64,000 nt of DNA, taken from Acidicapsa dinghuensis. Its GTDB lineage: Bacteria > Acidobacteriota > Terriglobia > Terriglobales > Acidobacteriaceae. The stretch lies in contig NZ_JAGSYH010000001.1 of assembly GCF_025685685.1 (NCBI RefSeq), forward strand, positions 62,001-126,000. The letters are read 5' to 3'. The translations under genes were made by a program, and so were the position numbers. The first letter of the stretch is position 1. Every line of letters starts with the position of its first letter. Under the pieces are notes generated by a model, which did not search any database, was not told the DNA's origin, and saw nothing but the letters and a program-made list of their open reading frames with translations. Shown piece after piece: positions 60,647 to 62,455 of this stretch.

Positions 60647-60688
60647 GCCCGGATGGCGAAATCGGCAGACGCAGCGGACTTAAAATCC
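60647..60688 (+). pseudogene. tRNA-Leu(UAA), 5' part only
   Basis: The segment has the tRNA-Leu acceptor start GCCCGGA, the D arm and the anticodon loop with TTAAAATCC, and then breaks off into unrelated AT-rich sequence at 60689. The anticodon is TAA and there is no intron. The 3' half is not found in the window. Its D-arm and anticodon sequence is repeated almost exactly in the intact tRNA-Leu at 62108, so the two flank the integrase gene as direct repeats. Confidence 0.85.
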
Positions 60689-60804
60689 AAGTTATGCATG
60701 AATAAAATGTCTAAAATCAATTGCTTGTAGCTTTACTTTTTATTTCACATCTGCTACACAATTACACATGTGCACGGCATTTTTGAGGCGCGAAGGAGCT
60801 ACCA

Positions 60805-62086
60805 ATGTCCGAAACCCTAGAAAGCCCAAAACCCAAAGCAGAAACCCACAAAACCATGGGCGGCAAGGTCAACATCTACCGCCGCGAAAATAGCGACAAC
60901 TGGCAGTGCTCGACTTTCCTTAACGGGCGCAACTGGCGAGTCTCAACGCACGAAGACAGCCTCGGTCGAGCGAAGGACTTCGCCGAAGATTGGTATCTCG
61001 CCTTGCGCGGCAAAGCGCACGCCGGGCTTCTCGAAAAAAAATACCCGACGGCAAGGCAAGAAATTCAAGGAAGCCGCTGCGAAATTCCTCGAAGAGGCTC
61101 CTATCCTCACGCAGGGCCAGCGCGGCCCGACTTGGCTAAATCAGCATGAGTCGAAACTGAGCGGTATCATCCTTCCATTTCTGGGCGAGAAATACCTGAC
61201 CGAAATCACATCCGGCGTCATTCAGGAATACCGCATCTGGCGCGCGCAGAATTGCAAGACAGGCGGCACTCCGGCGCGGAGCACGGTACACAAGGAGATC
61301 GTCTGTATTCGTCAGGTACTGAAAACGGCCAGGAGACACGGTTGGATCGAGTACCTCCCCGACATGTCGGTACCCTACAAAACTTCCGGCAAGATCGTGC
61401 ACCGGGCGTGGTTCTCGCCGGAGGAGTACAAGAAGCTCTACGAGGCGACGCGCCGGCGCGCGAATGAGCCGAAGCAGGCGCGCTTCAAATGGGAATGTGA
61501 ACAGCTGCACGATTACGTGCTATTCGCGGTGAACACCGGGCTACGGCCCGATGAGGCGTGGGGGCTGCAATTCCGCGACGTCAGTGTTGTGAAGGACGAC
61601 GCCACCGGCGAAAAGATCCTTGAGATCGAGGTGAGAGGTAAACGAGGCGTTGGCTATTGCAAGAGCATGCCGGGCGCGGTCAGGCCGTTCGAGCGCCTAA
61701 AGAGTCGCCAACGCCCCTTGCGAATCGACGAGCCTGGACGAGGAGGAACAAACAAGGAGACTCGCTTGCCTGAGCCTACGGACCTGCTCTTTCCTAAATG
61801 GCAGCGCGAATTGTTTAAGACGATTCTCGACGAAGAGAAATTGAGAGCTGATCGAGATGGCCAAGCGCGAACAGCGTACAGCCTCCGCCATACCTATATT
61901 TGCCTGCGCCTGATGGAAGGAGCCGATATTTACCAAATTGCTAAGAACTGCAGGACTTCTGTCGAGATGATCGAGAAGTTCTATGCCTCCCACATTAAAA
62001 CCAGGCTTGATGCGGCCGCGATCAATATCACGCGGAAGAAGAAGGTTGCGAGGCAGGCGGCAAAGGAACTTCGCACCGGCACTTAG
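60805..62086 (+). pseudogene. Tyrosine integrase, single frameshift at an A8 run
   Basis: The first frame (from the ATG at 60805, preceded by GAAGGAGC) encodes the arm-binding N-terminus (GGKVNIYRRENSDNWQCSTF) and then runs into AAAAAAAA at 61034-61041, after which the catalytic part is in the +1 frame. With seven A residues the protein would be continuous, about 427 residues: LLEKNTRRQGKKFKEAAAKF, then ILPFLGEKYLTEIT, the box I arginine in NTGLRPDEAW, RHTYICL with the box II arginine, and the nucleophile tyrosine in FYASHI. The box II histidine position holds Tyr. It may be a mutation, a sequencing error or slippage. It lies between two tRNA-Leu copies and so belongs to a tRNA-Leu-targeting element. 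Confidence 0.85.
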
Positions 62087-62107
62087 CCTTATACTTAAGG
62101 TGACCAT

Positions 62108-62455
62108 GCGGGCGTGGCGAAATCGGCAGACGCACCGGACTTAAGCGCAACTTGAGTGCTCGTCGGGAAATCGGCGATGCAGAACTGCTCAAATTCGGGG
62201 AACCCTTTGAAATGGCAACCCCGAGCCAAGCCCCGACGGAGAACTCCGGAGGGGAAGGTGTAGAGACTAGACGGGCAGCACCTACCGCCGAACGGCGACG
62301 GACCGAACGGTTACGGTGAAGGTATAGTCCAGACCACAAAACTGTCGGAGCGTCCCTTGGACGCGTTCTCCGGCAGCGCGGCGAAAGCCGCAGATGGTAA
62401 GAAAATCCGTTGGGGCGCAAGCCCCGTGAGGGTTCAAGTCCCTCCGCCCGCACCA
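62108..62455 (+). tRNA. tRNA-Leu(UAA) with group I intron in the anticodon loop
   Basis: The 5' exon (62108-62142) carries acceptor GCGGGCG, the D arm and the anticodon stem up to U34. The 3' exon (62402-62455) restores the anticodon loop CTTAAAA (TAA), a variable arm (TTGGGGCGCAAGCCCC) and the T arm, and closes the acceptor with CGCCCGC, A and CCA. The exons fit a complete leucine tRNA; position 27-43 is a C-U mismatch. The intron sits between U34 and A35, the same place as in cyanobacterial and plastid tRNA-Leu(UAA). Confidence 0.92.
62143..62401 (+). ncRNA. Self-splicing group I intron
   Basis: The 259-nt intron ends with G (omega-G, 62401), as group I introns do. P1 forms between the exon-intron sequence ACTT|AAG and the internal guide CTTGAGT at 62151-62157, with a U-G wobble exactly at the 5' splice site. 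The conserved P7 halves GACTA (62265-62269) and TAGTC (62325-62329, in GGTATAGTCC) are present. There is no ORF inside, so it depends on RNA folding alone. I infer autocatalytic splicing. Confidence 0.9.

Follow-up and report, generated by a model that had tools for sequence, protein, structure and literature searches.

An intron-bearing replacement tRNA-Leu(UAA) carried by an integrative element that splits the host tRNA-Leu(UAA) gene of Acidicapsa dinghuensis

In the tRNA-dependent lysogeny of mycobacteriophages the host tRNA is destroyed and a tRNA carried by the element replaces it (Guerrero-Bustamante and Hatfull 2024, PMC10865867); in phage Gaia a tRNA-Leu(CAA) lies just downstream of the integrase (PMC10865867). 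Phage-like islands of Sinorhizobium meliloti likewise replace tRNA-Leu(UAG) (PMC11476347). Introns in tRNA genes have been described from two other directions: a group I intron occupies the same site of tRNA-Leu(UAA) as here in cyanobacteria and plastids (PMC4033280), and in archaea tRNA introns have been proposed as a protection against integrases (Randau and Soll 2008; Sugahara et al. 2012; PMC3293823; PMC4033280). The locus described here lies in a 64,000-nucleotide stretch of DNA from the soil bacterium Acidicapsa dinghuensis (the window; positions 62001-126000 of contig C9 in a 6.17-Mb genome), in which an integrative element has split the host tRNA-Leu(UAA) gene and carries, just behind its integrase gene, a complete tRNA-Leu(UAA) interrupted by a group I intron.

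As in the mycobacteriophages, the host tRNA gene is split and not restored, a tRNA is carried by the element, and the common core is short (18 bp here, 9 bp across the family). No intron is reported for the mycobacteriophage system, whereas here the replacement appears to be shielded by a group I intron or by a mutated core. The two also differ in that the related integrase loci described here are held by Acidobacteriota, Proteobacteria and Planctomycetota, that the element encodes a relaxase and a coupling protein, and that no relatives of its integrase were found in the phage collection. The S. meliloti islands integrate in the middle of a tRNA-Leu gene and replace it with a foreign tRNA-Leu of the element, as here, but they concern two strains and a different isoacceptor, and an intron is not mentioned. 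The cyanobacterial and plastid introns share with ours the gene, the U34/A35 site and the kind of catalytic core, but sit in native tRNA genes inherited vertically or laterally, whereas the intron-bearing tRNA here is cargo of an element that destroys the native gene. With archaeal tRNA introns and split tRNAs the shared idea is that an intron in the attachment site keeps the tRNA working while removing the target, possibly to the benefit of the element; the archaeal introns are removed by a protein endonuclease, in contrast to the group I intron found here. In the literature searched we found no paper that joins tRNA replacement and intron protection in bacteria, and the combination of an element-borne tRNA replacement with intron shielding appears to be new.

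The intron-bearing gene occupies positions 62108-62455 of the forward strand. The Rfam covariance model for group I introns (RF00028; gathering score, the curated cut-off, 50 bits) matches 62132-62347 at 57.1 bits (E 7e-12), and this is the only match to the model in the genome. The intron of 259 nt, delimited by this match and by an alignment of 26 homologues of the intron-bearing tRNA, runs from 62143 to 62401 and ends in G62401. It is inserted in the anticodon loop, after C32 U33 U34 and before A35 A36 A37 A38; exon 1 (62108-62142) ends with U34, and exon 2 (62402-62455) begins with A35 and includes an encoded CCA. When spliced, the exons fold as an 89-nt tRNA-Leu(UAA) with a single mismatch, C27-U43. 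Helix P1 pairs 62139-62145 with 62151-62157 and places a U62142-G62154 pair at the 5' splice site, a U-G pair that is present in all 26 homologues. The catalytic core is invariant or nearly so across this alignment, and of the 76 pairs predicted for intron and exons together, 31 have changes in both partners. Standard folding leaves out the P3/P7 pseudoknot, while RF00028 aligns over its whole length. The covariance score, the U-G pair in P1, the terminal G and the paired ribozyme core together confirm that this is a group I intron, and introns of this class would be expected to splice themselves out and leave a functional tRNA. It presumably resembles the cyanobacterial tRNA-Leu introns (subgroup IC3, tRNA type).

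A first-pass annotation of the window had proposed a group I intron between U34 and A35 of a tRNA-Leu(UAA) from the tRNA-Leu exons, the U-G wobble in P1 and the terminal G, and all of these are present. Its boundaries are those of the exact tRNA gene with the encoded CCA, the Rfam search that it suggested gives a match above the cut-off, and the non-cyanobacterial, mobile-element setting that it described holds, with a real integrase gene 22 bp upstream.

The native gene was found by a genome search as a perfect copy of the anticodon arm 1.4 kb upstream of the intron-bearing tRNA. At 60647-60688 on the forward strand lies the 5' half of an intronless host tRNA-Leu(UAA), GCCCGGATGGCGAAATCGGCAGACGCAGCGGACTTAAAATCC, which forms the left attachment site (attL); the sequence past 60688 bears no relation to a tRNA. 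The 3' half, GCAGCGGACTTAAAATCCGCAGG...CTCCGGGCACCA, forms the right attachment site (attR) at C9:181692-181754, outside the window and 59 kb from attL. When joined, the two halves give a perfect 87-nt intronless tRNA-Leu(UAA). They share 18 bp, GCAGCGGACTTAAAATCC, at 60671-60688, and within this identity lies the attachment core GACTTAAAA (60677-60685), which covers the anticodon loop and nucleotides 30-31. Copies of the core associated with tRNA sequence occur on C9 at 122677 (the attL of the window), 161920 and 181698; a degraded tRNA-Leu(UAA) copy at C9:161896-161978 suggests a second, tandem integration, that is, two elements in tandem. Among the 48 tRNA matches of the genome there is no other intact tRNA-Leu(UAA), although tRNA-Leu genes with anticodons CAA, UAG, CAG and GAG are present, and UUA codons are in use, with 107 in 35 neighbouring open reading frames (ORFs). 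The window thus contains the left end of an integrative element of about 59 kb, beginning with the integrase gene and followed by the intron-bearing replacement tRNA.

These junctions bear directly on a classical island that rebuilds its target at one end, with the intron-bearing tRNA as the rebuilt gene. An intact tRNA does stand at the junction where related integrases target Arg, Phe or Met tRNAs, which would favour such an arrangement, but here attL and attR are both partial genes, the host tRNA is rebuilt at neither, and the intron-bearing tRNA, itself complete, is a separate third gene lying 1.4 kb into the element. We rejected a tRNA-restoring island on these grounds and regard it as scarcely credible.

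An empty site is available from a related pair of strains. In Edaphobacter lichenicola M8US30 an element of about 33 kb (locus L128) is flanked by sequences that match strain M8UP30 with 86.7% identity over 5.8 kb and 76% over 4.6 kb. Joining the tRNA halves at its two ends gives a sequence equal to the intact intronless tRNA-Leu(UAA) of M8UP30 at 90 of 90 nucleotides. Synteny links the left flank of the window to intact intronless tRNA-Leu(UAA) loci in three genomes of the same genus (G001, G005 and G011), and also to intron-bearing loci in G003, G009 and G010; in G003 the severed host half is kept just upstream of the intron-bearing tRNA and the integrase is gone. In strain AB60 the module from attL through the integrase gene to the CCA of the intron-bearing tRNA is 87% identical over 1.8 kb, with a matching attR about 50 kb away. 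An ordinary chromosomal origin, with the intron-bearing gene native and an unrelated integrase adjoining it by chance, could appeal to the closeness of the integrase gene, which departs from the usual layout by reading towards the tRNA's 5' side. Against this, the native gene is the split one, whose acceptor stem GCCCGGA is unlike that of the intron-bearing tRNA and which is syntenic with intact intronless genes of relatives, and other genomes have conserved the module. On the strength of the empty site and of this conservation we rejected chance adjacency, to which we give almost no weight.

The reading that we consider probable is that integration is tRNA-dependent and that the intron confers on the replacement gene immunity to the integrase of its own element. 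The integrase would recombine GACTTAAAA in the anticodon arm of the host tRNA-Leu(UAA), and integration cuts the host gene in two without rebuilding it, which leaves a non-functional 5' half as attL and a non-functional 3' half as attR. The replacement just behind the integrase gene, the only tRNA-Leu(UAA) found, would then be needed for UUA codons. In its transcript the intron would splice itself out to give a normal tRNA, while in the DNA the site of the integrase would be parted by 259 bp. Without the intron, attL and the core of the replacement would form direct repeats flanking the integrase gene, which could be deleted, and an incoming sibling element could destroy the last tRNA-Leu(UAA). 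The replacement would escape the resident and sibling integrases because the intron parts the halves of their site, and the cell probably retains a functional tRNA encoded by a gene that has ceased to be a target. The first-pass annotation had suggested that the intron might block the integrase target. Comparative data fit blocking well, but the intron-bearing gene is the carried replacement, and the true target is the intronless tRNA-Leu(UAA) now split between 60647-60688 and C9:181692-181754.

The comparative data come from a scan of genome contigs for related integrases, which gave 80 loci and, with one viral contig, a set of 81. The architecture is conserved: in 65 of the 81 loci the integrase gene is preceded by a severed 5' half of tRNA-Leu(UAA) or tRNA-Leu(CAA) that stops directly behind the anticodon loop, and a complete downstream tRNA could be resolved in 50 (window included), usually within 200 bp. 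Thirty-two of these replacements carry a group I intron and 18 do not; RF00028 scores are above the cut-off at L144, L157, L177, L180, L187, L188 and L194. Every UAA-targeting element with a resolved adjacent replacement has the intron (30/30). The single intronless UAA replacement, in L189, has a mutated core; this locus was counted apart from the 30, its upstream site not being a clear tRNA half. CAA-targeting elements mostly carry an intronless tRNA-Leu(CAA), the replacement of L188 being intron-bearing, and L133 is mismatched in that its target is a CAA gene yet it carries a UAA intron gene.

Replacements almost never keep an intact core. None of the 32 intron-bearing replacements has its own 9-bp core as a contiguous sequence; taking the intron out would restore it in nearly all of them. 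Among intronless replacements whose core is known, 14 of 17 lack their own core through changes at nucleotide 30, 31 or 32 that keep the stem paired. The general core GA(C/T)T(T/C)AAAA is absent from 13 of the 18 intronless replacements but from none of 27 ordinary tRNA-Leu(CAA) genes of Alphaproteobacteria, a set selected for its similarity to a core-holding query (Fisher p 1e-7, with relatedness ignored). On the integrase tree, in which the row for L151 is frameshifted and its long branch meaningless, the intron state changes at least eight times. The comparison suggests that the replacement is immune and that loss of the target is the reason for keeping the intron.

Two cases could be framed as a prediction. 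In Oricola indica (L184) and Breoghania corrubedonensis (L191) a split tRNA-Leu(UAA) lies with an integrase gene but no replacement is adjacent. Should an element that splits the UAA gene have to carry a shielded copy, one would be expected elsewhere in each element. In Breoghania the element, which runs from attL at 402656 to attR at 371097, contains an intron-bearing tRNA-Leu(UAA) at C2:396383-396578, and in Oricola one lies on the element side of attR at C38:401420; the prediction was thus borne out in both. A restored 3' half had also been considered at these two loci, and was rejected as it yields no working tRNA-Leu and the intron gene was found elsewhere in the element.

The main alternative is that the intron is a hitchhiker: the elements would have captured a tRNA-Leu(UAA) that already held a widespread neutral intron, and its position within the core would be a coincidence, both intron and integrase favouring the conserved anticodon loop. 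Cyanobacteria and plastids have an intron at this very site (PMC4033280), intron-bearing tRNA-Leu(UAA) genes are also found without an integrase, and the GCGGGCG acceptor stem and very similar exons suggest few captures. Hitchhiking does not sit easily with an intron that is essentially always present in the UAA replacements of elements as against roughly 10% or less of sampled genomes, with core mutations in the intronless replacements that are unseen in the 27 ordinary genes, with the eight intron/no-intron changes needed on the integrase tree, or with the two hidden intron-bearing tRNAs that were predicted and then found. We consider it unlikely.

Introns of this kind were surveyed with RF00028 in 299 sampled genomes of the same class and 190 Alphaproteobacteria, with matches in 35 and 21 genomes, respectively, many of them in tRNA-Leu(UAA). 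The description of the occurrence as unusual in the first-pass annotation is not upheld by these figures. Many of the matches, but not all, are linked to the integrase family or its remnants. Among 25 intron loci in Terriglobia, 12 have an integrase or a remnant of one and five more have a severed half upstream; of the 13 integrase-free loci, five keep a severed tRNA half 50-95 bp upstream, and others show synteny with it. In two integrase-free loci, L034 and L242, a contiguous GACTTAAAA is regained at the start of the intron, which would fit a relaxed constraint, although there are only two such cases. Given the many tRNA-Leu(UAA) introns with no integrase nearby, we rejected the idea that the intron is exclusive to elements.

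A second alternative, compatible with immunity to the resident integrase, is that the intron is kept mainly against competing elements of the same family. The presence of the core at C9:122677, 161920 and 181698 suggests that the site was used for integration several times, integrase-free relatives keep the intron, and a benefit of this sort was proposed for archaeal tRNA introns by Sugahara et al. 2012 (PMC3293823). The replacements are, on the other hand, tied to the isoacceptor of the resident integrase, and sequence alone cannot part this alternative from self-protection; we hold it as a tentative possibility, somewhat less than evenly likely as the main cause.

Several observations weigh against immunity as the explanation. 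L166, L173 and L174 have intronless replacements with an intact core, and the near-identical elements L181 and L182 lie in targets with differing left stems, which indicates that the stem is not strictly read. The integrase tree offers only five well-supported independent pairs; about four are concordant with the target isoacceptor and none is opposite, too few for significance alone. The 27 background tRNA-Leu(CAA) genes share the bias of having been sampled by similarity to a core-holding query, and in the intron-bearing genes P1 pairing also demands constant exon sequence. Intron-bearing tRNA-Leu(UAA) genes without a nearby integrase make up about 8 of the 25 Terriglobia loci and most of the alphaproteobacterial ones. 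The integrase gene of the window is itself frameshifted, so that this copy is probably immobile. Finally, elements in G028 appear to have integrated into an intron-containing tRNA-Met, and a universal protection by introns was rejected on account of these elements. That genome has a tRNA-Met(CAU) whose anticodon loop holds a group I intron (L032, L040, L041), and two further copies of the intron and 3' half lie beside an attachment-like TTGGGCTCATAACC.

The integrase gene (60805-62086, forward strand) begins 117 bp past attL and ends 22 bp before the intron-bearing tRNA. It was delimited by its 87% DNA identity to the AB60 module, in which the gene is intact, and relatives are of about 400 residues. 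In the window it reads as two ORFs, 60805-61149 and 61364-62086, as one extra A in a run of eight (61034-61041) shifts the frame relative to AB60. We therefore rejected an intact gene here; the frameshift could be a true mutation, slippage or a sequencing error. The Pfam Phage_integrase model stays below its cut-off (best 15.7 bits against 27.1), which is a threshold on the score and does not define the class by structure, and a profile search of the PDB by sequence gave no match. An AlphaFold model of the AB60 homologue (pLDDT 82) has 58 fold matches in the PDB at E<=0.001, and the top 50 listed are chains of XerH, XerA, Tn1549 Int, lambda Int, Cre and integron integrase. Arg235, Lys267, Arg349, His350 and Tyr381 are invariant in 26 homologues and are assigned as catalytic by motif position. 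On the modelled fold and these residues the protein is classed as a divergent tyrosine recombinase. IMG/VR holds one relative, without a resolvable downstream tRNA, and further relatives occur on a few rhizobial plasmids.

Between the two tRNA halves, the 59 kb of element DNA encode a TrwC relaxase, a TrwB coupling protein, a Dnd-like DNA phosphorothioation set, a BrxC/D-like ATPase and HipA. A ResIII helicase and a kinase-TPR protein were also seen in the element (C9:122.7-181.7 kb, starting at 60689 in the window). No phage structural families were found among the 20 element proteins examined, and the gene content is consistent with a mobilizable element that carries defence genes. A possible -10 box of the replacement tRNA, TATACT (62090-62095, forward strand), lies 12 bp ahead of its first base and 3 bp past the integrase stop codon, and is conserved in AB60 and G022.

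Other arrangements were seen in the integrase set. In the Acidobacteriota loci L122-L127, L132, L135-L139 and L141 a tRNA-Leu(CAA) is split and there is no replacement beside the integrase gene. In two genomes with a split CAA gene (G074, the genome of strain M8UP30, and G075) no replacement, no intact CAA gene and no group I intron were detected, and the UAA gene is intact. A tRNA-Leu(UAA) is able to read UUG in place of tRNA-Leu(CAA), and for this reason the lack of a CAA replacement in these genomes is as expected. In L100, L101 and L102 (genomes G038, G043 and G025) a 5' tRNA-Leu half lies 2.8-6.5 kb ahead of a full tRNA-Leu with the same 5' half; it seems that these elements supply the 5' half in rebuilding their target, which inverts the usual arrangement. 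In several UAA elements (L205, L206, L207) the attR has element-supplied tRNA nucleotides 7-38, and the 5' acceptor strand is missing wholly or for the most part; this may be left over from an earlier stage in which the target was rebuilt.

For annotation, the locus carries a warning that intron-bearing tRNA genes of this kind are missed or mislabelled by standard tRNA finding. ARAGORN in its plain form missed the gene at 62108-62455, and when an intron was allowed it labelled the gene Phe(AAA) and placed the intron three bases off. Elsewhere on the contig, at C9:613831-613916 (L050 in genome G000), ARAGORN gives the anticodon UUA to a type II tRNA gene, which would decode the UAA stop codon; this is possibly a degenerate Leu or Ser tRNA.

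Immunity of the replacement would give the intron a clear job, and would explain how an element can kill an essential host tRNA without killing the host. Going further, we lean towards the view that a large family of bacterial integrative elements has repeatedly put group I introns to use as a means of target immunity, by which an element can bring along a functional copy of the tRNA gene that its integrase attacks, and that some of the scattered non-cyanobacterial tRNA-Leu introns are the fossil record of such elements. For archaea, the persistence of selfish introns at the tRNA anticodon loop and a possible shielding of tRNA genes against integrases are matters of discussion that no direct test has yet addressed. 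The bacterial system offers many element-linked examples, a pair of strains with an empty site and, in the mutated cores, an alternative solution for comparison.
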